Source: Alteromonadaceae bacterium
GTDB taxonomy: Bacteria > Pseudomonadota > Gammaproteobacteria > Pseudomonadales > Cellvibrionaceae
Assembly (NCBI GenBank): GCA_002746115.1
Contig: NVXL01000001.1
Location: 7,957-71,956 of the forward strand
Reading direction: 5' to 3'
Length of the DNA stretch: 64,000 nucleotides
The notes under the pieces are model-generated. The model was not told the origin of the DNA, did no database searches, and saw only the letters and a list, made by a program, of their open reading frames with translations. A program made the translations under genes and the position numbers. Each line of letters opens with the position of its first letter. The stretch's first letter is position 1. Below, piece by piece: positions 14,130 through 28,453 of the stretch.

Positions 14130-15608
14130 TCAGGAAATTACTTTGTCCCTTAGTCTGTCCGCCGCGACCTCTAGTGCTTCTATAACTTTCTCTTTTTCAT
14201 AATTACGTATGCTGTCGAGATCTAGATGCATCGAAAACCCTTGTGTATTCTCTTCGTAATAATTTTGGTTTTTACCTAGGTCTTTACGGAAGTTAATCAC
14301 TTGATAGACTTTAATGGGTTGGCTAAAGCCTTTCACCATGATGTCGTCCTTTTCGTGACACATAATGACATCTTTCACTAATGACCAAGTTTCGTGAGAG
14401 ATGAGTATCTCGCCGGCTTTAGAGGACGATTCGAGCCTGGCGGCTAAATTCACATTGGTTCCGAGTACGGTGTAATCCATATAGTGGCTCGTGCCAAAAG
14501 TACCTACTGTACAAAAACCTGTATGGATGCCCATGCGGATTTCCAGGGGCTTTTTGACGCCTTGGTTGTACCATTTTGACCAGAGCTCTTTCATTTTGTG
14601 GCGCATTTCAATCGCCATAGATACGCAACGGATGCAATCGTCTTTCATGCCGACGCTCTGTGAATCGCCAAATAAAATCAGTAGGCCATCGCCAATAAAT
14701 TTGTCGATAGTGCCGTTATATTTAGCCACGATGGTGGACATTTCCGTAAAGTAACCGTTCAGCAAGTCGGTAAGTGTTTCAGCTTCGAGCTCCTCTGAGA
14801 GCGAGCTGAAGCCCTTTATGTCGGAAAAGAACACCGTGATACATTTGCGTTCAGTTTTTAACGATTCTTCCCTGTCATTATTGATGGCTTTCCAAACTGT
14901 TGGTGTTAAATAGTTTGCCAGTTTGTACATACGTATCTTTTGTATGCGTACGGTGTCAATCAGTTTGGCATTGTCTGCTTTTAGCGCTGTGACTGAGTTG
15001 TGGGTATAAGCTGCGTAAGTGAAGAAATAACATAGTGTGGCGATAATGCTTATGCTGATTGCCGCAATGTTATCCAGAAAGACCCATTGTGACTGCCAGA
15101 TAGATATGGTTATGGCTAAGCCTATAAAAAAGGAGCCGCAATCTCGCGCCCATTGTTTGTAACCACTGGCAATTAGCCCGTTAAATTGCACAATTATGAA
15201 GAATAATAATGTAGGTAATAAGTTAATCTGTTCAGTGTTTAGTATAAAGGCAATTACTGCGGCATCGGCAGTTGCAATACGTGCGAATACACGCTCGTAG
15301 CTGTCTTTGGTTCCAGCATTTTTAATTAATAAATAGGATATTAATGTATAAAGGGCGGCGCCAATAACCACAATACCCTCTACTAAGGTGACATCTGGCC
15401 AGGAGACGTTGGTAGCTGATATCGCAATACCGGATAGACATAGTAAGGCTCGAATATGGTTGCGTCCGATTCGTTCGAGACTTAAAGCATCGTTTTGTTT
15501 AAGTGGGTAAGTTTTCTTACGTGTGGCTTTTTGTTGATAGTGACGTGAGCCACTACGTGTATTAGCTTTGCTTACCCTTCTTTTTGAAGACCCGTTTTGT
15601 AGTGACAT
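14130..15608 (-). CDS. membrane class III adenylate cyclase (CyaB-like)
   Basis: From the ATG at 15608 the protein has 492 aa: a basic N-terminal tail, about six hydrophobic helices (MASE2-like, roughly residues 50-210), then a class III cyclase domain at about 255-440. Both metal-binding Asp residues are present (FFSDIKGFSS and FIGDGLLILFGD). So are the adenine-selecting Lys and Asp (DKFIGD, MDYTVLG) and the transition-state NxxxAR (NVNLAARLE). It therefore should make cAMP. The reading frame stays open to a TTG at 15722, with another ATG at 15680. None of the starts has a clear ribosome site, so the start is uncertain. Confidence 0.88.
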   Translation of the reverse strand: MSLQNGSSKRRVSKANTRSGSRHYQQKATRKKTYPLKQNDALSLERIGRNHIRALLCLSGIAISATNVSWPDVTLVEGIVVIGAALYTLISYLLIKNAGTKDSYERVFARIATADAAVIAFILNTEQINLLPTLLFFIIVQFNGLIASGYKQWARDCGSFFIGLAITISIWQSQWVFLDNIAAISISIIATLCYFFTYAAYTHNSVTALKADNAKLIDTVRIQKIRMYKLANYLTPTVWKAINNDREESLKTERKCITVFFSDIKGFSSLSEELEAETLTDLLNGYFTEMSTIVAKYNGTIDKFIGDGLLILFGDSQSVGMKDDCIRCVSMAIEMRHKMKELWSKWYNQGVKKPLEIRMGIHTGFCTVGTFGTSHYMDYTVLGTNVNLAARLESSSKAGEILISHETWSLVKDVIMCHEKDDIMVKGFSQPIKVYQVINFRKDLGKNQNYYEENTQGFSMHLDLDSIRNYEKEKVIEALEVAADRLRDKVIS

Positions 15609-15789
15609 ATAAGGGTTGAATTTTGCTCGAAGATGCAGGTTTGTGAGCCGGCAGTCACAGTGCTCTAGGCTGGTCGGCATCGAAAGAATGGCAATTACGC
15701 CTGTTTTGTCGACTTTTGTCAAATGCTAGTAGCGGTATTTTTGGGTGCTTGAGTTTTATTTTTCGTAGTGTGAGCGTTTAAGACCGGAG

Positions 15790-17802: not shown

Positions 17803-18130
17803 CTATCCACTCCTAAATTGCTGAACATCGTAAACACATGGCATTCTTCCTAGTATCTAAAGTCTAGGTGAGAAATAATGCTACTATTATTGACAAGCGA
17901 TAATAACTGACCTTGGCTACCTAGAGTAGCAGTCTATTAACCCGTTTAATTGTAACTGCTGATGCTTCCTTACTATCTTACCTATAGATATATAGACAGA
18001 GATAAGACGATACGGTAGTCTGGCATAATATGTCAAACCATTTTGATGTTAGAGGGGCAAGTCTGCCACTCTACATATTAATAATGAGCTAGGTTGAGAA
18101 TTCAATACCGCGGCAGCGGAAGGAGAGTTT
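17803..18130. promoter_or_regulatory. 328-bp divergent control region before the lipoprotein gene
   Basis: This region separates two divergent genes. It is AT-rich and holds short TATTAT/ATAATA inverted repeats at 17885-17905 and a TTGACA hexamer at 17890-17895 without a convincing -10 at normal spacing. A palindromic site at 18021-18035 is listed separately. The lipoprotein gene has a strong ribosome site (GGAAGGAGAG) directly before its ATG. No extra gene was seen. Confidence 0.5.
18021..18035. promoter_or_regulatory. candidate operator, copy A (before lipoprotein gene)
   Basis: TGGCATAATATGTCA is, on the opposite strand, TGACATATTATGCCA. It differs by one base from the perfect palindrome core at 21926-21940 (TGACATATTATGTCA). 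It lies 95 bases before the lipoprotein ATG, a distance similar to that of the copies before the DUF2170 gene. The regulator is unknown; a shared binding site is inferred from the match. Confidence 0.55.
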
Positions 18131-19165
18131 ATGACAAAAATGACTGTAGAATTTATACGCGGTTTACTAATTGTCTGGATGGCGATGGCATTGGTGGCAT
18201 GTAGTTCAAATGAGGCAAAACTTGAGCAAAGCTTGATACAAATTGACGATATTGCTAGACGTCAAGTTGACTTGTTAGCCCGTCACATCAGTAATGGTAG
18301 AGTGAAAAATGCCCTGCTGTTAGAGCGTTATGCTGCTAATGTTGCTAAAAATAAGCCTGATTATCGTGATATTGCAGACGCGTTGGCGCTTGATGCTGGT
18401 GTGGATGGCCCGATATTTACCTCGCTGAATGCACGACTTGACGACGCTAAAAACCAAATTAGCAAAGTTGCTAAACAAGGTGGGGAAGCTGCGCAGCTAT
18501 TACTGCAGGAATACGAGAGTATTAATACAGCTGCTAGCGTGAACAATTACAACATGATGCTGACTGACCCGATTAATGTGTTGGCTGACATGTCTGACGG
18601 GAAGCTGCCCCGGGTGGGGGCGATGGCGAAAAAGGCGAGTATTAGTTCCAATGGAGCCAAAGACCTGGGGCACGGAAGTCAATTGGTGGGTAACCCGAAT
18701 TACGGGCAGTGGAAACAAAGTAATAACGGCACCAGCTTTTGGGCGTTTTATGGTCAGTATGCTTTTTTTTCCAGCATGCTAAATAGTCGCTATAACTATG
18801 GCTACTGGTCTAATTCGCGAGATTATAGTTACTACCACGATGTTGGGCGGCGTCATTATTCCTCGCCAGCTCAAAAGACGGCGCAAGTTAAAACAGAAGA
18901 TCGTACGCGCAAGCACTTTCGCAGTCGCGGTAAATCATTTCAAAGTCCTTATGCTAAAGCGAAAAGCTCTGGCAGTAGCGCTACACGCAGTGTGCTAAAA
19001 GCCCCAAGTAAATTTAACTCCTCTGGTGGTGGCGGAAAATATTCTAGCCGATATGGCTCTTCGTCTAAATCGAGTAGTGGTTCAAACAATAGTAAATCTA
19101 GTTCAAAGTATTCTTCGCGTTCGTCCAAAAGTAGCTCAAGGAGTTACGGTGGGGGAGGGAAGTAA
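18131..19165 (+). CDS. lipoprotein of the PspA-family envelope locus
   Basis: The 344-aa protein has a lipoprotein signal peptide with lipobox LVAC and the acylated Cys at residue 24. Residues 25-150 are helical and charged. Residues 185-235 are rich in Tyr, Trp and Asn, and the last 110 residues are almost entirely Ser, Gly, Lys and Tyr (for example SSKYSSRSSKSSSRSYGGGG). Its place in the locus is that of YjfM (DUF1190) in the E. coli yjf operon, whose members also end in Ser/Gly-rich tails. I infer an analogue, not a proven homologue. It may sit in the outer membrane with a flexible tail in the periplasm. Confidence 0.8.
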   Translation: MTKMTVEFIRGLLIVWMAMALVACSSNEAKLEQSLIQIDDIARRQVDLLARHISNGRVKNALLLERYAANVAKNKPDYRDIADALALDAGVDGPIFTSLNARLDDAKNQISKVAKQGGEAAQLLLQEYESINTAASVNNYNMMLTDPINVLADMSDGKLPRVGAMAKKASISSNGAKDLGHGSQLVGNPNYGQWKQSNNGTSFWAFYGQYAFFSSMLNSRYNYGYWSNSRDYSYYHDVGRRHYSSPAQKTAQVKTEDRTRKHFRSRGKSFQSPYAKAKSSGSSATRSVLKAPSKFNSSGGGGKYSSRYGSSSKSSSGSNNSKSSSKYSSRSSKSSSRSYGGGGK

Positions 19166-19170
19166 CTTGC

Positions 19171-19215
19171 TATGTAGCTGTACTGAATAGCTTGTTATGT
19201 GTATGCACTGAATAG
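19171..19215 (+). repeat. imperfect 20-bp direct repeat
   Basis: TATGTAGCTGTACTGAATAG at 19171-19190 recurs with four mismatches at 19196-19215. The period is 25 bp, in the gap between the lipoprotein and DUF350 genes. Role unknown; it may be a local duplication. Confidence 0.6.
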
Positions 19216-19291
19216 AATGCCTGGTATTACGCCAAGATAAAAATAATTAAATAGATAAAATGCAAGACTTTGTAAAACACTGGAGACGAAA

Positions 19292-20176
19292 GTGGACAAT
19301 TTAACCTTATGGTATATCAGTATCTTTGCGGTTGACGTAGCCATCGCAGTGGCGGCACTTATTGGCCTGCGTTACGCAATGGCTTGGTTCACGGGAGTGC
19401 ACGTCAAAGATGAGTTAGACCGAAAAGACAACTTTGCTTTCGGTACCGTCATTGCGGCAGCGGTAGTTGCTTTGGCCTTGGTACTATCTGCGGCAGTATC
19501 CGGAGATGTGGCGACATCGATTGCGACTGAAGCGCTAAATGTTGTGCTGTATTGTGTTGTCGGCATTGTGCTTTTAAAGCTTGGTTTATTCTCCCAGGAA
19601 AAGCTCATGTTGACTGGGTTTTCGATTAAAGAGCAATTACAAAAACAAAACATGGCCGTTGCCGTAGTTGTTTCAGCCAACCTAATTGCGGTCGGCTTGA
19701 TTATCCGCAGCGGTATTTTATGGGTAGAAGCTGATGACTATACTGGTTTGCCTGCGCTTGCAGTCGTTTTCGTTGTGTCACAGCTTGTCTTGATGCTAGT
19801 AACGCTGCTGCGTTCGAAAGTTTATGCTAAAAGACATAATCAGAGCTCTTGGCAGCAAGCGATTGCGTCTGGTAATACGGCGTTGGCGATACGTTATTTT
19901 GGCCAAGTGGTAGCGACTGCATTAGTGCTTACGGCTATTGGTGGCTTGGTTGTCTACCTTCCAGGCCAGCTCCATTTAGTTGCTGTGACTTGGCTCGGTC
20001 TTGGTGTGGCGGCATTGTTGGTCTTGTGGGTCTTGTATCGTATTATTTTACCCGTCTTGCTTACCGGAGTAGACGTGGTTGCCGAAGTGGACGAGCAACA
20101 AAATATTGGTGTCGCTTGGATAGAGGCGGCAATATTTATGGCGATAGCCATTATTTTAATTGCCTTTTTACTCTAG
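19292..20176 (+). CDS. DUF350 (YjfL-like) membrane protein, duplicated
   Basis: The 294-aa protein is almost wholly membrane-embedded, with about eight helices. Four segments begin with a small polar residue followed by Ala-rich hydrophobic helix: DNFAFGTVIAAA, KQNMAVAVVVSAN, SGNTALAIRYFGQ and QNIGVAWIEAAIF. This is the DUF350 pattern, which appears twice in the about 130-aa E. coli YjfL, so this protein looks like a tandem double YjfL. The molecular function of DUF350 is unknown. It starts at a GTG with TGGAGACG upstream. The polyamine-synthase-like gene follows nine bases after the stop. Confidence 0.85.
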   Translation: MDNLTLWYISIFAVDVAIAVAALIGLRYAMAWFTGVHVKDELDRKDNFAFGTVIAAAVVALALVLSAAVSGDVATSIATEALNVVLYCVVGIVLLKLGLFSQEKLMLTGFSIKEQLQKQNMAVAVVVSANLIAVGLIIRSGILWVEADDYTGLPALAVVFVVSQLVLMLVTLLRSKVYAKRHNQSSWQQAIASGNTALAIRYFGQVVATALVLTAIGGLVVYLPGQLHLVAVTWLGLGVAALLVLWVLYRIILPVLLTGVDVVAEVDEQQNIGVAWIEAAIFMAIAIILIAFLL

Positions 20177-20185
20177 ACTAAACCC

Positions 20186-21898
20186 TTGGCCAGTCTCCAA
20201 AAAAGGCTTCGTTATCACGACGCCCTTCTCATCACCGTTATGGCCTTATTGGCTGCCTGCGGGTTAATATACGAATACCTCTTGGCGCATTACGCTGGGC
20301 GTATTTTAGGTTCGGTTGATACTACGCTTTATGGCATGATCGGGTTAATGATCGTAGCAATGGGCATAGGTGCGTTTTATGCTCGTACAATCACCTGCCC
20401 CTACACCGGGTTTGCTTGGCTAGAAACCGGTATCGCGATACTTGGTGGCGTCTCGGTCTTGTTGATGGCGGGGCTGTTCTCTTTTGCTTATATTCTTCCG
20501 TCTCAACTCCAGCAGGTTTACCACTCACACGAAACCCAAGGTATTTATGGTGGTGGCGTATTTCTGTTTCAGCAGTTAGCAGAAGTCTTCCCCTATTTGA
20601 TTGGCCTACTGTTAGGCGCAATGGTAGGAATGGAAATTCCCCTTATTGCGCGTATCCGAGAAGATATTCATCAAAAACACTTGCAGCATAATACCGGCAC
20701 CATCTATGGGGCGGATTATATTGGTGCGGGGTTTGGCGCCGCAGTTTGGGTCGTCGTGTGTATTAAATTACCAATTATTGTATCGGCTGTTGCAACGGCG
20801 GGTGTGAATCTCGTTGTTGGTTGGTTTTTCTTGGCGCACTATTTTCGGCGTGTTAAAGGGTTAATGTTCTTGTTAGGCGTGAACGTACTTATTGCATTAG
20901 TGCTTGTTGTGATCGCAATAAACGGGCAGTCCTGGATGAGCAAGATGAATAACATGCTCTTTCAAGACGCTGTGGTATTTTCAGAAAATACCCGCTATCA
21001 AAACATTGTGATTACGCAAAGAGCGTTAAAAAATCAGAATAAAACCATTACGCGCTTATATATAAACGGGCATTTACAGCTGGCCAGTAACGATGAGGCC
21101 ATATACCACGCGATGTTAGTTGTGCCGCCTTTAATGGCTTCAGCGCGCCATGAAAAGGTACTGGTAATTGGTGGTGGCGATGGCATGGCTGTGCGGGATA
21201 TTCTATCTTGGCAGCCCAAGAGCGTCACTCTAATTGATCTTGACCCGAGTATGATTCAGTTGTTTCAAGGGGCGCATCCGTCGGCGCCTGCGTGGCTGAG
21301 TCAGACGCTAATAGGCTTAAATCGAAATGCATTGAACGACCCTAGGGTGGAAATAAAATATGGTGACGCGTTCAAAGTTGTTGAGACACTTGCTGAATCT
21401 GGGAACTATTACGATGTAATTATTGTCGATTTACCTGACCCTAATCACCCCGACCTGAATAAGCTTTACAGTGATTATTTTTACGGGAAATTACAGCAGA
21501 TACTTGCCGCCGATGGTGCGATTTCGGTTCAGTCGACTTCGCCTTATTTCGCGCAGAAAGCGTTTATGGCCGTAGGCAAGACGATGGCTTCTGTCGGGTT
21601 TAATACGCGTCAGTACCATACCAATGTGCCAAGCTTTGGTGAGTGGGGGTGGACTATTGCAACCTTGGCAGGCCCATCCCCAGCTGAGCGTATTCAGCGC
21701 CTAGGGCAGATACCGGTCAAGCACCCATGGCTTAGCTATCAGCAAGTGATGGCGGCTTTTGTATTTTCTGATAACTACTTTGATGATCTTGAATCCATTG
21801 ACGTAAATCGTTTGAACTCACCAACCCTGTATCGGTATCACGCTGAGGGTTGGCAAGACGGTGATGGCGTTTATTTTTCATCGGGTCTTGACTTGTGA
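20186..21898 (+). CDS. membrane spermidine synthase-like protein
   Basis: The 570-aa protein has about seven hydrophobic helices in residues 10-255, then a spermidine/spermine synthase Rossmann domain. Motifs are the aminopropyl-donor site VIGGGDGMAVRDI near 330, LIDLDPSM, VEIKYGDAF and IIVDLPDPNHPDLNKLYS, where the first Asp of DxxDP is the expected catalytic base. It may transfer an aminopropyl group to a polyamine at the membrane; the substrate is unknown. The start used is a TTG nine bases after the DUF350 stop, without a clear ribosome site, so translation may be coupled. An ATG at 20240 would cut the first helix. Confidence 0.85.
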   Translation: MASLQKRLRYHDALLITVMALLAACGLIYEYLLAHYAGRILGSVDTTLYGMIGLMIVAMGIGAFYARTITCPYTGFAWLETGIAILGGVSVLLMAGLFSFAYILPSQLQQVYHSHETQGIYGGGVFLFQQLAEVFPYLIGLLLGAMVGMEIPLIARIREDIHQKHLQHNTGTIYGADYIGAGFGAAVWVVVCIKLPIIVSAVATAGVNLVVGWFFLAHYFRRVKGLMFLLGVNVLIALVLVVIAINGQSWMSKMNNMLFQDAVVFSENTRYQNIVITQRALKNQNKTITRLYINGHLQLASNDEAIYHAMLVVPPLMASARHEKVLVIGGGDGMAVRDILSWQPKSVTLIDLDPSMIQLFQGAHPSAPAWLSQTLIGLNRNALNDPRVEIKYGDAFKVVETLAESGNYYDVIIVDLPDPNHPDLNKLYSDYFYGKLQQILAADGAISVQSTSPYFAQKAFMAVGKTMASVGFNTRQYHTNVPSFGEWGWTIATLAGPSPAERIQRLGQIPVKHPWLSYQQVMAAFVFSDNYFDDLESIDVNRLNSPTLYRYHAEGWQDGDGVYFSSGLDL

Positions 21899-21911
21899 CA
21901 TATTATGACAT
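21895..21911. promoter_or_regulatory. candidate operator, copy B
   Basis: GTGACATATTATGACAT starts at the last codons of the polyamine-synthase-like gene. It matches the perfect palindrome 30 bp downstream in all but two positions. The left half-site is complete; the right half differs by one central base. Spacing of 30 bp, about three helical turns, places both copies on one face of DNA. Confidence 0.55.
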
Positions 21912-21924
21912 AGTCTAGAGTCGG

Positions 21925-21941
21925 ATGACATATTATGTCAT
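21925..21941. promoter_or_regulatory. candidate operator, copy C (perfect palindrome)
   Basis: ATGACATATTATGTCAT is an exact inverted repeat with 8-base arms around one central base. It lies 108 bp before the DUF2170 ATG. Together with copies A and B it suggests a dimeric regulator acting on both halves of the locus. No sigma54 -24/-12 element like that of the E. coli psp operon was found nearby. Confidence 0.65.
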
Positions 21942-21979
21942 CTGGTAAGGCTGGGTATCTCATATGGCGCGAGATCTAC

Positions 21980-22001
21980 TTATTAACGATTTATTAACGA
22001 T
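21980..22001 (+). repeat. tandem 11-bp repeat in the pspA-operon leader
   Basis: TTATTAACGAT occurs twice with no gap (21980-21990 and 21991-22001), about one helical turn apart, roughly 50 bp before the DUF2170 start. It could be a second protein-binding site or part of the promoter; the sequence alone cannot say. Confidence 0.6.
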
Positions 22002-22048
22002 CGGCATTGCTTTAGATATACCCCACTTTAAACGGAGACGTAAGGTCA

Positions 22049-22477
22049 ATGAACTTAGAAGAACTCGCTTTTAAACTGAACACATTTAACTCAACTACTG
22101 GCGTAACTTATGCTGCAACGCTATTGGATGACAATAGTGCACTTGAAGTTGTATGCAGTGTGAACCCCGATGCAAGTATTTTTGTGGTCGTTTCAGACCA
22201 ACAGATATTATCGGTAACGCCGTTATTCGCAACGACTGACGTACAAGCACCTTTGCGCGATGAACTTAACAAAACTTTGTTGACCTTATCGCCAGTGATT
22301 CCGCTGTCATCTATTGGCTTGCAAGAAGATAACTATGTTCTCTTCGGGGCAATGCCGGTGACAACAGTATTTGAAAACATCGCACACGAGTTGGAGGTGC
22401 AGGCGGATAATACGACAGATGTTTTAGTGGCGCTTGAAAGCTATTTTGAACAAACTGAATTAACGGAAGAGGTATAA
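22049..22477 (+). CDS. DUF2170 (YjfI-like) protein
   Basis: The 142-aa acidic, soluble protein has the layout of YjfI: an N-terminal amphipathic helix (NLEELAFKLNTF), a beta-rich middle with VCSVNPDASIFVVVSDQQ, and a closing helix (VLVALESYFEQ) with an acidic end. In E. coli and relatives yjfI directly precedes the PspA homologue yjfJ, as here (gap of four bases). Its biochemical role is unknown; a chaperone-like or PspA-regulating role is inference. TAAGGT precedes the ATG. Confidence 0.82.
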   Translation: MNLEELAFKLNTFNSTTGVTYAATLLDDNSALEVVCSVNPDASIFVVVSDQQILSVTPLFATTDVQAPLRDELNKTLLTLSPVIPLSSIGLQEDNYVLFGAMPVTTVFENIAHELEVQADNTTDVLVALESYFEQTELTEEV

Positions 22478-22481
22478 CATC

Positions 22482-23180
22482 ATGGCACTAGGAAATATTT
22501 TTAAAGATTTAGTTACAGCTATTCGCGGTGGCGTAAGCGATGTTGGTGAATCGATTGTCGATTCACAAGCCCTTCGAATTTTGGAGCAAGAAATTCGTGA
22601 TGCGGAAGACGGAATTGCCACCGCAAAACAAAGTTTATCTAAACTAAAGGCTCAAGAAATAAAGCTTTCTCGGCAGTTAGGTGATTTAAACACCGACATT
22701 GAAGACTATACCGGTAAAGCGCGAGCGGCCTTAGAGCAGGGCAACGAAGCCTTGGCTCGTAAAATTGCTGAAAAAATCGCTGAGCTTAGCGACTCCAAAA
22801 ATGAAATTGCTTCACACCAAGGTGAGTTGTCTTCGCAAGTAGATAAAATCTACTCAATTATTCAGCAGCGTGAAAAGCAAATCGAGAAAAACAAAATCGA
22901 GTTGCAAAAAGCGAAAACAATAGAAGACTTGCAGAAAACTAAAAGAGCGGTTGCCTCGGCCATGCCGACCAATAACAGCAGTGCTAAACGTGTTAAACGA
23001 GCGATGGATCGAGTTAAGAAGCGTCAAGAAGACTTTGATAACGAGTCAGATGCTGACCAATGGATGGCCGATATGGAAACCGGCGCAGACCTAGATGCGC
23101 AGATTGCTTCAGCCGGCCTGGGTGGTTCAGGGAAGTCCGCAGCTGATGATATTCTTGCGAGCTTAAAGGCCGGTAAGTAA
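22482..23180 (+). CDS. PspA/IM30 family protein (YjfJ type)
   Basis: PspA/IM30 proteins bind stressed inner membranes and polymerise through long coiled coils (ESCRT-III-like fold). The 232-aa protein begins with an amphipathic helix (GNIFKDLVTAIRGGVSDVGE) that would insert into lipid. A helical hairpin of about residues 25-160 follows, rich in Lys, Glu and Gln heptads. A helical tail ends with the conserved LDAQIASAGLGGSG and ADDILASLK segments. It is the core of the locus. A strong terminator hairpin lies 37 bases after the stop, so part of the transcripts should end here. Confidence 0.92.
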   Translation: MALGNIFKDLVTAIRGGVSDVGESIVDSQALRILEQEIRDAEDGIATAKQSLSKLKAQEIKLSRQLGDLNTDIEDYTGKARAALEQGNEALARKIAEKIAELSDSKNEIASHQGELSSQVDKIYSIIQQREKQIEKNKIELQKAKTIEDLQKTKRAVASAMPTNNSSAKRVKRAMDRVKKRQEDFDNESDADQWMADMETGADLDAQIASAGLGGSGKSAADDILASLKAGK

Positions 23181-23216
23181 TTAGACTGGTGATATTCATA
23201 AAGACTGTTGTAAGAT

Positions 23217-23242
23217 AAATGGCCCTATTTGGGCCATTTTTT
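23217..23242 (+). terminator. intrinsic terminator after the pspA-like gene
   Basis: AAATGGCCC, a five-base loop TATTT, then GGGCCATTTTTT forms a 9-bp stem running into a T tract. The next gene of the locus starts 29 bases later on the same strand with its own ribosome site. The hairpin could therefore be a partial terminator that lowers expression of the DUF2491, small-protein and channel genes, unless a second promoter exists. Confidence 0.8.
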
Positions 23243-23270
23243 CGTCTTTACACTGTTAGCCGGAGAGATC

Positions 23271-23906
23271 ATGTTAGGTAAATTTTTTAATAAAAAGAAA
23301 GAGCGTGCACGTAGGCTTGAGCACCCGCGAGATCTACGTGTTGGCGACATATTAGAGCTGAAACCACGCTCAATATTACCAGAGGAGCTGCAAGGGGCGT
23401 CGTTAACGGTAAAAAGTGTATGCGCCTATGAGTATAGCGATGGTTTGGTGACAGAATTCGCATTGATAGCTGAAAGTGCTAAGCAATACTCAATGTCCTT
23501 CGAGAGCGGTGATGATGGAGATGAGCTGTGCTTTTCACATAAACTGAGCCATCAGCAAGTCTTACAGTGCTTTGATGAAGATTCCTTTGGCGGGCTCTGG
23601 TCGGATGAACATGTTAGCTTTGACTCTCGCCAACCGGAAGGCGCCTTAGGCGATTGGATCGCAAAGGGCTACCGGCAGACAGTGAAAGAGGCAACAGCGT
23701 ATTTCTATGATAAAGATAAGCGTGGAAGTGCCGTATCCGAATATCTAGATAAAGATGCGCAGGAACTACGGTACCACGAGTGCGAAGGGGAGCCGGATCA
23801 GTTCTCGCTCAATGTTGAGATTTGGGAAGATGGTGAGACCGATGTTTTTGCTCTAGTCAGTGTTCCGTTAAACGTGATTGAAGAGATGTGGCCGAATGGC
23901 GATTGA
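23271..23906 (+). CDS. DUF2491 (YjfK-like) protein
   Basis: The protein has 211 aa from the ATG at 23271, preceded by CGGAGAG. An earlier in-frame start (23229) would lie on the terminator hairpin and is unlikely. After a basic N terminus (GKFFNKKKERARRLEHPRDLRVGDILELKP) it is a soluble beta-rich acidic protein, with no membrane segment. YjfK accompanies the PspA homologue YjfJ in E. coli. Molecular function is unknown. Its stop overlaps the next gene by 11 bases. Confidence 0.85.
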   Translation: MLGKFFNKKKERARRLEHPRDLRVGDILELKPRSILPEELQGASLTVKSVCAYEYSDGLVTEFALIAESAKQYSMSFESGDDGDELCFSHKLSHQQVLQCFDEDSFGGLWSDEHVSFDSRQPEGALGDWIAKGYRQTVKEATAYFYDKDKRGSAVSEYLDKDAQELRYHECEGEPDQFSLNVEIWEDGETDVFALVSVPLNVIEEMWPNGD

Positions 23907-24234
23907 TGTAAAGCAAAATGAAAAATGGGCTAAAGAGGCGGCTCAGCTAAAAAAGTTGCAAGTGAATTTTAGTTTTGTGCCTCAGGTGGATCGTGCTTTG
24001 CGGCACGAAGCCGTCGATTTAGATATGACACCAAGTAATTTGCTACGCGAAAAGCTAGGTTTAACCTCATCTAAAACTGTGCGTCAACGTCTTGGTGTGT
24101 CACTTGACGAGGGGGATTTTCATTGCTTGGCTGAACGTTATGAACTTGACCCCAATGATCGTAATGCCATTAAACGACGGGCTACCGAGGAGATCCAAAA
24201 ACAATATCAATCCTCCTTAGATCAAAAGGCTTAG
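23896..24234 (+). CDS. small basic/acidic helical protein, 112 aa
   Basis: I do not recognise the family. The protein is helical; residues 20-60 (NFSFVPQVDRALRHEAVDLD, MTPSNLLREKLGL) resemble a ribbon-helix-helix pattern: a short strand, a helix of 14 residues, a turn and a second helix. A DNA-binding or regulatory role within this locus is thus possible but not shown. The ATG at 23896 lies inside the end of the DUF2491 gene. An earlier TTG at 23878 is less likely. The channel gene follows six bases after the stop. Confidence 0.7.
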   Translation: MAIDVKQNEKWAKEAAQLKKLQVNFSFVPQVDRALRHEAVDLDMTPSNLLREKLGLTSSKTVRQRLGVSLDEGDFHCLAERYELDPNDRNAIKRRATEEIQKQYQSSLDQKA

Positions 24235-24240
24235 GTTCCG

Positions 24241-25335
24241 GTGAAACGATATATATTTCTTTTCTCAATCTTAAAGCGACATCGGGCAACTCGACACCTT
24301 TCTGGTAACTTGGCTCAGCGCATTGTTAAGCTGCTAATTTTTTTACTGATTCTAGTATGCGTTAATTCTTTAGCGCTTGTTGTGTTTGACGGGATGGCAG
24401 TAGGCGACGCCTTCTGGCTTTCGTCGACTACCGTGACAACGGTTGGTTATGGCGATTTGTCGCCCTCAAGTTGGCAAGCGCGCGCTGTGACTGTTGTCTG
24501 TATGTATTTACTTGCAATCACAGTCTTATCGTTATTAATTGCTGAAACAGTCGATTGGCGCGTGTTTGTCGCAGAAAAAAAACGTAAAGGTCAATGGGAG
24601 TGGAAGTCTATGCCCGAACATATACAAATAATTAATACCCCAAATGAAGATGCTGAGCGTTATTTGGTGCGCTTAGTTAAGCAAATTCAAATTACGCCGG
24701 AATTGGCGGGTTTACCTGTGCAGGTGTTAACCCGAAAATATCCCGATGGTTTGCCTGAGTCTTTAACTCGTTTGCATGTTTTGCACCGAAGCGGGATAGC
24801 AGAAGACGCGGATGTGTTAAAAAACATTGGCTTGGATAGCGCCAAATACGTGATTATCTTGGCGCGTGATGCAAACTCACCCGCCTCCGATAGTTCGACG
24901 TTCGATATTCTTTGTCGGATAAGGGAGAGCAACGAGAGCGCAATCATCATTGCTGAGAGTGTTAGTGATGAAAATAAAGCGCGGTTTGTACGCTACGGGG
25001 CAAACGTCGTGATGCGCCCAGTACGAGCTTACCCAGAAATGATTGTACGCTTCCTTGCTCACCCAGGTACTGAAGCTGTGTTGGAGAATCTGTTTGAATA
25101 CAATCAGGATTTTCTCAGTCGTATTGAGTACTCTTTTGAAAATATTTACTGGAAGGACATTGTTGCGCGCAGTGTTGCTGGCGGAGCTGGCACACCCTTG
25201 GCGTACATTAATGCTCAGGGCGTTCAAACGAACCCAGACCCCAGCTCACTCTGCAGCGGTAGTGCGGTGATCTCTATGGTGAGCGAGAAGCAAGCGGTAG
25301 ATGCGGATCTGCTATCGAAATGCCTGAAGGTTTAA
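24241..25335 (+). CDS. two-helix potassium channel with TrkA-like domain
   Basis: The 364-aa protein has a first helix (about residues 28-50, LLIFLLILVCVNSLALVVF), a pore helix with the potassium filter TVGYGD near residue 71 (TTVTTVGYGDLSP), and a second helix (AVTVVCMYLLAITVLSLLIAE). A cytoplasmic RCK/TrkA-N-like domain follows at about 120-300. The first nucleotide-binding turn (HIQIINTPNEDAERYL) lacks the GxGxxG of NAD-binding RCKs, while the later ILARDANSPASD region is kept. The start is a GTG six bases after the previous stop. Presence in the PspA locus suggests a link between membrane stress and ion flow. Confidence 0.9.
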   Translation: MKRYIFLFSILKRHRATRHLSGNLAQRIVKLLIFLLILVCVNSLALVVFDGMAVGDAFWLSSTTVTTVGYGDLSPSSWQARAVTVVCMYLLAITVLSLLIAETVDWRVFVAEKKRKGQWEWKSMPEHIQIINTPNEDAERYLVRLVKQIQITPELAGLPVQVLTRKYPDGLPESLTRLHVLHRSGIAEDADVLKNIGLDSAKYVIILARDANSPASDSSTFDILCRIRESNESAIIIAESVSDENKARFVRYGANVVMRPVRAYPEMIVRFLAHPGTEAVLENLFEYNQDFLSRIEYSFENIYWKDIVARSVAGGAGTPLAYINAQGVQTNPDPSSLCSGSAVISMVSEKQAVDADLLSKCLKV

Positions 25336-25510: not shown

Positions 25511-25599
25511 AAATATCTACGTGCGGGAGATCCTTCACTATACTTAGCATGACCTTTTATATCATGACTTTTATATGATGGACTTGCGCGTAGATATTT
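25511..25599. repeat. inverted repeat and tandem repeat before the histidine kinase gene
   Basis: AAATATCTACGTGC (25511-25524) and GCGCGTAGATATTT (25586-25599) pair in 13 of 14 positions around a 61-bp loop. The loop holds two adjacent near-copies, CATGACCTTTTATAT (25548-25562) and CATGACTTTTATAT (25563-25576). The right arm ends one base before the kinase ATG at 25601, so as RNA it would occlude the start region; as DNA it may be an operator. Confidence 0.6.
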
Positions 25600-25600
25600 G

Positions 25601-28453
25601 ATGATTTCCGTGGCAGCTAGATTAATGCTCTTTTGGAGTGTAATGCTAATAGGGCAATATCTATTAGCCTCCGAACCCTCTTCTGTCCATTATGTGACAG
25701 CTCACCAAGGCTCAGAGGATATATCCTCCCGGGTTCAAGTCTTCACGGATATACATAATCTAGCTGATTTAGACGCTATTGTCGCAGGTGAATATGACCA
25801 GCGTTTTGGGGCTGTGTCTGGTGATTTCTATCGCTCTCGTGAACGTCAGGCGCGACACTGGTTTAAGGTAGCCCTTAAAGCACGAAGCGCGATCGATAGC
25901 GGAGAGTATGTTCTGCATGTTGATTCTCACCCCTCAAGAATTCCGCACCTTGGCCTAGCTTTAGTGTCGTTAGGGAGCGTTAAACAAGTGTTTGAAACAG
26001 GAAGCCATCTTCCTTTTGACTCAAGGGATATTGATGAGAGTAAACCCTACGCCTTTCGCTTGCAGTTGAATGCAGAACAGCCCCTAGAAATAGTTGGCTG
26101 GATTGACGCTAAAGCAATGCCGGGAGCAGTATTGTTACCATTAAAAGTGCATTCTGTGCAGAATTTCAATGCAGTAAAACATCAGAGTGATTTGTTGCAA
26201 ACGGCATTCTATGCAGCTCTTGCCGTACTCTTGCTTTACAATTTGTTTTTGTATATTTCGCTACGACAAAAGCTATACGCATTTTATGTGATTTTTTTAA
26301 CGACTTCTATCGGTGTGTGTATGGCCATCGATGGGAGTATTTACCATGTGTTCCCTAATTACCCAGCGGGGGTTTCGTTGGGTAAAAGTATGGGCGTGGT
26401 GCTTGCGATATTGGCTTACACTGCATTTTTATTTTATTCCCTAGATAAGTTTCAATATTACCCTCGTTACCGGTTTTACTATTTAATTGCCTTTGTTTTG
26501 GGTGGAATATTACTCCTGTCGTTGCCGTTAGTAGATACTTATTATCAAGTTGTTGGCTCACGAGTCTATGCCGTTACGCTGTTAATACTAAACGCGGGAG
26601 TTATTCTTCACGGCGTTATACGAAAAGTTTACGGGGCAGTAAGCTTGTTGTTTGCTGACGTTGCGTTCGTGCTTGGCGGATCTGTTTATATGTTAACAGT
26701 CAGTGGTTTTTTTCCTCCAAGCGCGTGGAGTATGTGGAGTTTGCATATCGGGTTTCTTTGTGAAACGCTCTTGCTTTCACTTGTGCTAGCGAACCTTACC
26801 CGACGGGTACAAAACGAAAACATTACTAATCTTGAGAAATATAGGGTCTTATATAACAATGCAATCGAAGGGCTTTTTCAGTATTCATTCGTTGATGGCA
26901 GCGTTACCTGTAATCGCTCGATGGCTGAATTATTTGGTTATACCGATGTTGATGTTTTTTTACGTACAGAGAAAATCATAGAGCTAGTAAAGGGAGCCGT
27001 TGACCATGAGATGAATACAAGGTTAATGCGCGAAGGTTTTGTGAGTGATTATGAATTAACGCTAAAAATAAAGCCCCCCGAAGGCTCAAAAACGGCAGCT
27101 CGTAAGCGCTGTTCTATCTCTATGAACCTCACTCGCAATAACACCTCAGGGGGTGCCAAGCATGTTGAAGGTTCGATTGTCGATATTACTCAGCGGTATT
27201 TTATGGCTGAGGTTCAGAGGCGTACTCTGCGAGCTCAGAATGAGGCAATCGATAATTTAAAAAAGTCAGAACAATTAAAAAGTGATTTTCTATCAATGTT
27301 AAGTCATGAGTTACGTACCCCGATGACGGGTGTGTCAGGATACATTGAGTTGTTAATCGATGAGGACCTAACGGACGATCAAGAAGATGTTGTCGGTGGG
27401 GCTCGGCGCTGTACCAAAGAGATGATGCGTTTACTTGATCGAGTATTGGAGTTTGCGCAGTTACACGCGGGTGCGCGGCGTAGGGTGCATACGCCTTTTA
27501 GTTTGGCCGAGCTGCTTGAGCCTATTCGCATAGATATTGCCGAGCGTTGCCGTAGTAAACGCTTAGTATTTAATTGGCATATTGATGACGGCATCGCGAA
27601 AGCCTTGATGGGGGATAAAAATAAGATCGCTTATGTACTTAAAGACTTGCTTGATAACGCAGCAAAATTTACTAATGCAGGCTACGTGGCTTTAAGTGCC
27701 TTCCAACATGAGTCGGTTGATAAGGGGCGAGTGGATGAGCGAAGTGTTGACCGTGATAATGATGATTGTGATGAAGAGACAAAAAAAGGGGTTTGTGGGG
27801 TTACTTTTAGAATCGAAGACTCGGGTGATGGCATTGATGAGGAAATGCGGAGCCACTTATTTGATAGCTTTAATCTCGGTGACGCCTCGTTTAGCCGAAA
27901 ATTTGGTGGTATGGGATTGGGGCTAGCTATTTGCCGACAATATGTAGAATTGCTCGGTGGGAATTTAACCTACCGGCCTGGTTGTCGAGGTAAAGGCAGT
28001 TGCTTCGAATTCACGATTGATCTTGAACGTACGAGCGCTACGAGCTTAATTGAAGAGCATTTTATTGCAAGCTCCAGGGGTAAAAGTGCGAATATTTTGA
28101 TTGTCGAAGATAACTTAACTAATCAAATGATATTGGAAAGCTTGATCAAAAAAATTGGCCATCGCACCACCACAGCAGAAAATGGTAGCGTTGCTTTGGA
28201 AAAATTAGAAAAGGAACATTTCGACTTAATTCTTATGGATTGTCAAATGCCGGTTATGGACGGGTTTGAAGCGACCGAACGTATTCGGCAGTCAGAGTTA
28301 AAATTTAATCACCTTCCAATTATTGCAGTGACTGCAAACGTTATGGAAAACGATAAGGACCGTTGTTTTAGCGCAGGGATGAATGATTTTTTGCCGAAGC
28401 CAATATCTAAAGATATATTGTCACACGCAATTTCAAAATGGTTGGTCGCTTAA
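25601..28453 (+). CDS. 7TM-DISM hybrid sensor histidine kinase
   Basis: The protein has 950 aa. An N-terminal signal peptide precedes a periplasmic 7TMR-DISMED2-type beta-sandwich (about 30-190). Seven transmembrane helices (about 200-400), a PAS-like domain (about 420-530), a HisKA domain with the phospho-His in SMLSHELRTPMTG near 570, and a HATPase with N box LKDLLDNAAKFT and G boxes DSGDGID and GMGLGLAIC follow. The C-terminal receiver has its phospho-Asp in LILMDCQMPVMDG near 885. DISM domains bind sugars or other small molecules in known cases. No response regulator gene is adjacent. The ATG lacks a clear ribosome site and directly follows an inverted repeat. Confidence 0.93.
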   Translation: MISVAARLMLFWSVMLIGQYLLASEPSSVHYVTAHQGSEDISSRVQVFTDIHNLADLDAIVAGEYDQRFGAVSGDFYRSRERQARHWFKVALKARSAIDSGEYVLHVDSHPSRIPHLGLALVSLGSVKQVFETGSHLPFDSRDIDESKPYAFRLQLNAEQPLEIVGWIDAKAMPGAVLLPLKVHSVQNFNAVKHQSDLLQTAFYAALAVLLLYNLFLYISLRQKLYAFYVIFLTTSIGVCMAIDGSIYHVFPNYPAGVSLGKSMGVVLAILAYTAFLFYSLDKFQYYPRYRFYYLIAFVLGGILLLSLPLVDTYYQVVGSRVYAVTLLILNAGVILHGVIRKVYGAVSLLFADVAFVLGGSVYMLTVSGFFPPSAWSMWSLHIGFLCETLLLSLVLANLTRRVQNENITNLEKYRVLYNNAIEGLFQYSFVDGSVTCNRSMAELFGYTDVDVFLRTEKIIELVKGAVDHEMNTRLMREGFVSDYELTLKIKPPEGSKTAARKRCSISMNLTRNNTSGGAKHVEGSIVDITQRYFMAEVQRRTLRAQNEAIDNLKKSEQLKSDFLSMLSHELRTPMTGVSGYIELLIDEDLTDDQEDVVGGARRCTKEMMRLLDRVLEFAQLHAGARRRVHTPFSLAELLEPIRIDIAERCRSKRLVFNWHIDDGIAKALMGDKNKIAYVLKDLLDNAAKFTNAGYVALSAFQHESVDKGRVDERSVDRDNDDCDEETKKGVCGVTFRIEDSGDGIDEEMRSHLFDSFNLGDASFSRKFGGMGLGLAICRQYVELLGGNLTYRPGCRGKGSCFEFTIDLERTSATSLIEEHFIASSRGKSANILIVEDNLTNQMILESLIKKIGHRTTTAENGSVALEKLEKEHFDLILMDCQMPVMDGFEATERIRQSELKFNHLPIIAVTANVMENDKDRCFSAGMNDFLPKPISKDILSHAISKWLVA

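Follow-up and report, generated by a model that had tools for sequence, protein, structure and literature searches.

The closest described relatives of the locus considered here are the PspA operons of Ravi et al. 2024 (PMC11237479), whose second major group (AAN56744-AAN56747, carried by Shewanella oneidensis) combines a CesT/Tir–PspA dyad with a 7TM-fused spermidine-synthase-like protein, an 8TM DUF350 protein, a Ctha_1186 lipoprotein, a DUF4178 protein, and an RHH regulator. In the available part of that study, polyamines or the aminopropylation of other substrates are suggested to be tied to membrane dynamics, and earlier work cited there had linked the fusions, DUF350, and SpeD and proposed the aminopropylation of an unidentified substrate; in the same part, neither an operator nor a C-terminal motif, a topology, or a substrate is reported. 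A related chemistry is found in Escherichia coli, where YgiC acts as a peptide–spermidine ligase (PMC12568646, citing Pederick et al. 2023), with YgiB as a possible substrate.

The window—the whole stretch of 64,000 nucleotides that was analyzed—carries eight neighboring ORFs at 18131-25335, all on the + strand according to its ORF list, as the first-pass annotation of this DNA had claimed. Their features and those of the surrounding DNA are as follows.

18021..18035, - strand: operator TGACATATTATGCCA, before the lipoprotein gene (sequence scan)
18131..19165, + strand: lipoprotein, 344 aa, Ctha_1186-type by gene order; lipobox LVAC-S, helical domain, Ser/Arg/Gly-rich tail -SSRSYGGGGK
19157..19162, + strand: codons of the invariant C-terminal Gly-Lys, the proposed acceptor site (GK in 35/35 homologues)
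19292..20176, + strand: duplicated DUF350 membrane protein; GTG start, two stretches of PF03994 (1.5e-33)
20186..21898, + strand: 7TM domain fused to a spermidine-synthase-like, predicted aminopropyltransferase; TTG start (profile searches, hydropathy)
21170..21184, + strand: GGGDG motif, residues 329-333, with the invariant, predicted dcSAM-binding Asp332 (alignment to B. subtilis SpeE 1iy9)
21428..21439, + strand: DLPD motif, residues 415-418, predicted catalytic region with invariant Asp415 and Asp418 (alignment to 1iy9)
21896..21910, + strand: operator copy 1, TGACATATTATGACA, before DUF2170 (sequence scan)
21926..21940, + strand: operator copy 2, TGACATATTATGTCA, lying 30 bp further downstream than copy 1 (sequence scan)
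22049..22477, + strand: DUF2170 protein, YjfI/BacA-type CesT/Tir-like chaperone (PF09938 8e-22)
22482..23180, + strand: PspA/IM30 family protein (PF04012 1.9e-34)
23217..23246, + strand: terminator-like hairpin (23217-23239 plus T tail) between pspA and the DUF4178 gene
23271..23906, + strand: DUF4178-family protein, gene 6 (8/15 orthologues match PF13785, best 1e-5)
23896..24234, + strand: predicted tandem RHH regulator, gene 7, 112 aa (weak RHH_1 and NikA-like matches in orthologues)
24241..25335, + strand: potassium channel of two TM helices, followed by a TrkA_N-like domain on the cytoplasmic side; GTG start (PF07885, PF02254; two hydrophobic peaks)

Most of these genes are what they had first been taken for: the lipoprotein carries its lipobox, the duplicated DUF350 protein, the DUF2170 protein, and PspA are matched by their families, a Spermine_synth domain lies behind seven hydrophobic segments, and the two-helix potassium channel bears the selectivity filter TVGYGD. 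The two DUF350 stretches agree with an 8TM DUF350 protein, the TM count being approximate. Gene 6 had been called DUF2491, a family that gave no match; the window copy, which likely starts at 23271 rather than 23229, has no significant Pfam match, and 8/15 of its orthologues match DUF4178. Gene 7, listed before as a small protein, does exist but was misnamed, as its predicted role is that of a regulator. What the first pass had overlooked are the conserved operators, the hairpin of terminator type that follows pspA, and the -GK end of the lipoprotein.

The first-pass expectation of a conserved gene unit holds: of 369 class-level genomes, 12 encode the enzyme and 13 the lipoprotein, with 11 encoding the two together, which is far above chance (Fisher 2.5e-18, ignoring relatedness). 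The K+ channel is the eighth gene in over a dozen relatives. A scan of genome contigs with a single enzyme sequence matched only two Thalassotalea loci, and the plasmid records held no lipoprotein homologue. A view of the locus as undescribed is not supported, its gene set being that of the six-to-seven-gene operon of Ravi et al. 2024 (PMC11237479). The operon is already known as a PspA operon class of unexplained function; the operator, the predicted topology, and the lysine-ending partner go beyond what the available part of that study gives.

The enzyme scores 587 bits against NCBIfam PRK03612 (cut-off 472). Aligned to solved spermidine synthases, GGGDG, Asp353, Asp394, Asp415, and Asp418 are unchanged in 17/17 orthologues, and both hallmarks of a spermidine synthase—the GxG(D/E)G motif and the catalytic Asp region—are kept. 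The enzyme hence retains aminopropyltransferase active-site residues, and its activity is predicted. Its loops differ strongly in charge, with a mean K+R of 11.2 in even versus 2.7 in odd loops (35/35 sequences), and the same holds for a second clade of membrane enzymes that is ~33% identical to the first (10.6 versus 1.5; 18/18 sequences). Because of this charge distribution, an N-in, C-out topology with a periplasmic catalytic domain is predicted for both clades—a topology that is based on hydropathy and charge only and that one missed or extra helix would reverse.

The lipoprotein has no Pfam match; it occupies the Ctha_1186 position in the operon, and this identity comes from gene order alone. 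A model of its domain is helical (pLDDT 89), with no significant structural match. Its -GK end recurs in all 35 lipoproteins, which represent 18 clusters at 50% identity, against a background of 2/474 ORFs. Near second-clade enzymes, an anchored or lipoprotein ORF ending in lysine is present at 20/20 loci (13 GK, 6 HK, 1 VK; the HK and VK ends were looked for after the GK pattern had been noticed). These partners lie within 1.5 kb in 17/20 cases and nearly always directly upstream of the enzyme, two Burkholderia partners being ~3 kb off on the opposite strand; they are unrelated, and several are inner-membrane single-pass proteins. GK is the commonest terminal dipeptide near the second-clade enzyme (12 loci versus 4 for the next), and soluble-SpeE control loci, only eight in number, show GK in 0/8 and K in 1/8. 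Some second-clade operons have polyamine oxidase-like neighbors. Since the enzyme is always encoded beside a lysine-ending exported protein, it is suggested to decorate the lysine of this protein on the periplasmic side of the inner membrane.

SpeD is present in 14/14 system-carrying genomes versus 203/369 overall (p 2e-4); several relatives carry its gene inside the operon, and the source genome has it at another place (C267). In the source genome, no clear soluble spermidine synthase SpeE was found, and NspC, an alternative spermidine route, is above its cut-off. The first-pass link of PspA to polyamine chemistry and ion flow stands insofar as genes for aminopropyl chemistry and a K+ channel are attached, but the enzyme is unlikely to serve bulk polyamine synthesis because an NspC-type route is present and the enzyme is predicted to face the periplasm. 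Li et al. 2019 reportedly described the linkage of membrane-fused SpdSyn with DUF350 and AdoMetDC and proposed a substrate other than putrescine, and such fusions are said to have failed to replace spermidine synthase; to our knowledge, that work names no specific substrate and does not mention a terminal-Lys partner.

A palindromic operator, GACATAWTATGTC, stands singly ahead of the lipoprotein gene, forms a tandem pair ahead of DUF2170, and is kept across relatives; within the 6.28 Mb genome, exact operators are confined to this operon. Upstream of DUF2170, 12.3 kb of sequence hold 39 operator cores, and 14.8 kb preceding the lipoprotein hold 8, versus 5 in 520 kb elsewhere, these five being upstream of speD or within over-extended ORF starts. 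The operator is found in 23/23 gene-7 loci and in 5/6 split-locus or distant gene-7 loci, and the exact core is missing from the 5 loci whose genomes are without gene 7; one split locus (L171) has a degenerate operator only. As the conserved operator tracks gene 7, autoregulation of the operon appears well supported at the sequence level. For gene 7 itself, an AlphaFold2 model (pLDDT 76) shows strand–helix–helix twice and Foldseek returned nothing significant, with the RHH proteins NikA, ParG, AvtR, and TraY among the weak matches; it is predicted to be a tandem RHH regulator. In ~11 relatives, the operator overlaps a sigma-70-like promoter (TTGACA-N16-TAAATT or TATCTT). The promoter in the window matches less well than those of the relatives do, and a sigma-70 scan of the window region showed no surplus of promoter-like sites. 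A sigma-54 promoter like that of the bac operon was rejected: -24/-12 matches were no more than chance, with none in the region. Hairpins similar to that after pspA occur in only 8/26 relatives checked, so that this hairpin is not a general feature.

We give an even chance to a reading in which this is an autoregulated envelope-stress operon of two modules, whose enzyme aminopropylates a C-terminal lysine in the periplasm and is induced together with PspA. One module would comprise the lipoprotein, DUF350, and the membrane aminopropyltransferase, fed by SpeD, and the other DUF2170, PspA, DUF4178, the RHH regulator, and the K+ channel. Gene 7 would bind the operators and repress the promoter. 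The C-terminal lysine would be the acceptor, and the modified tail might bind an anionic surface—lipid, LPS, or peptidoglycan; PspA would patch the membrane while the channel resets the potential. Passage of dcSAM to the periplasm might be by way of the 7TM domain or DUF350; we know of no source of periplasmic dcSAM, which counts against aminopropylation in this compartment.

The terminal lysine of the partner could also have another purpose. In the Braun lipoprotein Lpp, the C-terminal Lys is covalently joined to peptidoglycan, and the lipoprotein here might be a similar anchor linked by an L,D-transpeptidase, with the enzyme acting elsewhere or tuning the link. It does carry its C-terminal Lys on what appears to be an outer-membrane lipoprotein, as judged from +2 residues of the outer-membrane type (Ser or Gly in 21/26 readable lipoboxes), and a flexible Ser-rich spacer precedes this Lys, as in Lpp. 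Such an anchor, however, leaves unexplained the Lys ends beside the second-clade enzyme, whose partners are unrelated and in several cases inner-membrane single-pass proteins, and we regard it as improbable.

The intact spermidine-synthase residues would equally suit an enzyme that makes a small aminopropylated polyamine or a lipid-linked amine, which the lipoprotein tail merely binds or senses—a reading close to the proposal of Ravi et al. (PMC11237479) that polyamines, or the aminopropylation of other substrates, are monitored by the system. The polyamine oxidase-like genes near some second-clade enzymes point in the same direction. Yet an invariant terminal Lys is not predicted by a small product, the NspC route already provides polyamines, and the fusions were reportedly unable to replace spermidine synthase (Li et al. 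2019); we consider this reading unlikely, though worth keeping in mind. The 7TM protein might instead be a methyltransferase like fungal NHMT, with which it shares an identical architecture—7TM and then a SpeE-like domain—and which has secreted protein targets (PMC10349129). It seems highly improbable given that NHMT bears Ile at the acidic GxG(D/E)G position (PMC10349129), where Asp332 is found in 17/17 sequences here, and that SpeD always accompanies the system. An ordinary cytoplasm-facing spermidine synthase in a stress operon would fit the NCBIfam name, polyamine aminopropyltransferase, but is barely credible against a positive-inside analysis that is contrary in 35/35 sequences and a genome with an alternative spermidine route.

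Periplasmic aminopropylation of a lysine-ending partner might extend beyond this operon. Tentatively, and with somewhat less than even confidence, all membrane-embedded SpeE proteins may be periplasm-facing aminopropyltransferases acting on the C-terminal Lys of a dedicated exported partner, with the E. coli Ygi/Yjf ligases doing the matching job on Gly-Gly-ending partners. We know of no protein modification by C-terminal lysine aminopropylation; if true, it would be a new one of the bacterial envelope, parallel to YgiC/YjfC peptide–spermidine ligation, and PspA systems would gain a chemical arm. The lysine-ending exported partner of two enzyme clades is a candidate acceptor for membrane-fused spermidine synthases, and the conserved operator offers a handle for finding the trigger of the operon.

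Compared with group 2 of Ravi et al., the window shares the DUF2170–PspA dyad, the 7TM–SpeE fusion, the 8TM DUF350 protein, a lipoprotein in the same position, DUF4178, and a predicted RHH protein as the late gene that some operons of the group have, and adds the K+ channel. The likeness to E. coli yjfIJKLMC (group 3 there) that the first-pass annotation had drawn is real: DUF2170, PspA, DUF350, and a Ser/Arg/Gly-tailed lipoprotein are shared, and group-3 operons include a K+ channel. In contrast, yjfIJKLMC has DUF2491 for DUF4178, a 4TM DUF350 protein, the ATP-grasp YjfC for SpeE, and a lipoprotein ending in -GG (SARGHWGG) rather than -GK. The group-3 markers DUF2491, DUF1190, and a GspS-like ATP-grasp ligase were not found at the window locus; the missing ATP-grasp gene had been pointed out before, and this glutathionylspermidine-synthase-like family has no member in the whole genome.

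The Pseudomonas aeruginosa bacABCDEF operon (PMC10948618) shares the DUF2170–PspA dyad, BacA having a chaperone-like structure, but is without a spermidine synthase and has a sigma-54 promoter, for which the window has no site. Fungal NHMT (PMC10349129) shares the 7TM plus SpeE-like architecture and acts on exported proteins; it is, however, a methyltransferase in which Ile takes the place of the acidic residue that binds dcSAM, and its 7TM part is unrelated by its authors' search. E. coli YgiB–YgiC resembles the window in that a DUF1190 lipoprotein ending in SSRSMGG adjoins an enzyme joining polyamine to a peptide C-terminus. YgiC, however, is a ligase that attaches spermidine, already made, to a carboxyl end, whereas the window pairs a predicted aminopropyltransferase with the amine of a terminal Lys.

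The operon was proposed in the first-pass annotation as eight adjacent same-strand genes, which the ORF map of the window confirms as eight neighbouring ORFs.

18131-25335 (+): the operon, with genes for a lipoprotein, DUF350, the enzyme, DUF2170, PspA, gene 6, gene 7 and a potassium channel
25598-28453: directly downstream, a hybrid histidine kinase whose sensor is 7TM receptor-like and which also has a response-regulator domain, not kept with the operon in mapped relatives
14130-15722 (-): in the divergent region upstream of the operon, an adenylate-cyclase-like membrane protein adjoining a coiled-coil protein without family assignment

Pfam and NCBIfam bear out the duplicated DUF350 (two DUF350 stretches), DUF2170, PspA/IM30 and spermidine synthase-like genes—the spermidine-synthase domain matching PRK03612 at 587 bits (NCBIfam)—as well as the channel, which has two TM segments and a TrkA_N-like domain. 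Gene 6 had been annotated as DUF2491, a candidate now ruled out, with 0/15 orthologues matching it versus 8/15 for DUF4178. For gene 7, orthologues give weak RHH_1 and NikA-like profile matches, and the AlphaFold2 model from a 12-sequence alignment displays strand-helix-helix twice. Gene 7 is likely a single-chain RHH pair, an identity that stands as a prediction since Foldseek with this model returned no significant match.

The catalytic and dcSAM-binding residues of the enzyme are invariant in 17/17 orthologues and alignable with solved spermidine synthases. The fungal NHMT, a 7TM-SpeE-like protein that methylates secreted proteins, carries Ile at the acidic-residue position (PMC10349129), whereas the operon enzyme retains Asp. 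Seven TM segments emerge from hydropathy averaged across 35 sequences; Lys+Arg averages 11.2 in loops N, 2, 4 and 6 versus 2.7 in loops 1, 3 and 5, with the same direction in 35/35 sequences, and the second clade of membrane SpeE enzymes (~33% identity) shows 10.6 versus 1.5 (18/18). Because of this bias, the positive-inside rule—applied to composition only—predicts a cytoplasmic amino end and a periplasmic SpeE domain. In the window's genome, NspC exceeds its curated cut-off, and no clear soluble SpeE was found, with one marginal 24-bit match beyond two membrane enzymes. The second of these (contig C240, L065:1310-3505; 513 aa, GGGDG retained) is encoded directly 3' of a different 193-aa lipoprotein ending in -GSHSSGK.

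The tail of the operon's lipoprotein is one third serine and unalignable, and Gly-Lys forms the C-terminal end in 35/35 homologues (18 clusters at 50% identity), against a background of 2/474 other ORFs. Second-clade enzymes have partners with unrelated anchors: ~200 aa lipoproteins, 46-84 aa single-pass proteins and larger proteins. A Lys-ending partner occurs at 20/20 loci examined—13 GK, 6 HK and 1 VK, the HK and VK ends having been admitted only after the GK pattern was noticed, and some partner start codons having been picked by eye. The partner gene lies within 1.5 kb of the enzyme gene in 17/20, nearly always directly upstream; two Burkholderia partners are ~3 kb off on the opposite strand. 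The commonest terminal dipeptide around these enzymes is GK (12 loci), followed by HK (4 loci), while eight soluble-SpeE control loci gave 0 GK and one K.

Enzyme orthologues (45-59% identity) occur in 7/97 relatives, a set of 98 genomes once the window's own is counted. Among 369 class-level genomes, the enzyme is present in 12, the lipoprotein in 13 and both in 11 (Fisher 2.5e-18, a statistic that ignores relatedness); SpeD is found in all fourteen genomes with the system versus 203/369 overall. Gene order across loci resolves into two modules, [speD]-lipoprotein-DUF350-enzyme and DUF2170-PspA-DUF4178-RHH-channel, joined as one operon in either order in most loci and placed at different loci in some genomes. 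The speD gene lies within the operon in several relatives and on a different contig in the window's genome. The variant operon L094 (G339), speD-lipoprotein-DUF350-enzyme-DUF4178-channel, bears no DUF2170-PspA dyad, RHH gene or operator. On the Novosphingobium sp. ES2-1 plasmid p1 (L184), the order is SPFH-DUF4178-DUF4178-48-aa protein-DUF350-enzyme-FAD oxidoreductase-speD, without PspA; the 48-aa protein is single-pass and ends in SHK. A Band_7/SPFH gene between PspA and DUF4178 (L103:9371-10837) links this operon class to band-7 PspA systems.

The motif TGACATATTATG[A/T/C]CA has three sites, one upstream of the lipoprotein gene and a pair ahead of DUF2170, and the 6.28 Mb genome contains no other exact match. 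Relatives carry tandem copies of the palindrome GACATAWTATGTC upstream of DUF2170 and frequently a copy upstream of the first gene as well; some copies show symmetric changes (e.g., GGC..GCC or GCC..GGC). Of the GNCATAWTATGNC occurrences counted, 39 fall in the 12.3 kb upstream of DUF2170 and 8 in the 14.8 kb preceding the lipoprotein gene; 520 kb of other sequence contains 5, all of them upstream of speD or within over-extended ORF starts. The operator core is present in 23/23 loci showing both gene 7 and the DUF2170 promoter. Where gene 7 is located elsewhere (six genomes), the core accompanies it in five and a degenerate copy in one; in five genomes without gene 7, the exact core was not found, one having a one-mismatch variant. 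In ~11 relatives, the upstream sequences show the first copy overlapping a TTGACA that has TAAATT, TATCTT or TACATT 16-17 nt further on; the second copy sits just downstream of this promoter-like element. As read from sequence, the layout matches that of repression through promoter occlusion, and the gene 7 protein would bind the operator. Two further operator palindromes with one mismatch (C109:10830-10844 and C120:6847-6861 of the window's genome), one following an aspartokinase-like gene and one preceding a queA-like gene, reflect either chance or a wider regulon.

Among CesT/Tir-PspA operons, Ravi et al. 2024 (PMC11237479) describe this gene set as their second major group, including DUF4178 and, sometimes, an RHH gene. 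There, the potassium channel is listed for the third group only, that of the ATP-grasp ligase. Hence, the window operon is a known kind with a channel added—a channel common to >12 relatives besides the window, with a short version in Thalassotalea. For the operator and the lysine-tail pairing, the literature searched yielded no prior description, as far as that search can tell. The window's genome bears a second PspA locus resembling Ravi group 1 (C159, L067:3607-7777), in which PspA stands with a 219-aa neighbour and with a flotillin-like and a small membrane protein, and a third homologue, its best PspA match (C286, L066:1557-3045; 5.3e-43), followed by a small PspC-like protein.

In the simplest reading, the enzyme would move aminopropyl from dcSAM—presumably supplied outside the cytoplasm—onto the terminal lysine of its exported partner, and PspA, DUF2170, the channel and the regulator would tie this tail modification to membrane stress. 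E. coli YgiB and YjfM, which adjoin the peptide-spermidine ligases YgiC and YjfC, each carry a Ser/Arg/Gly tail resembling that of the lipoprotein but end in -GG. The proposed transfer would parallel the way in which these ligases join spermidine to the carboxyl ends of peptides, and either reaction would leave an envelope protein with a polycationic end.
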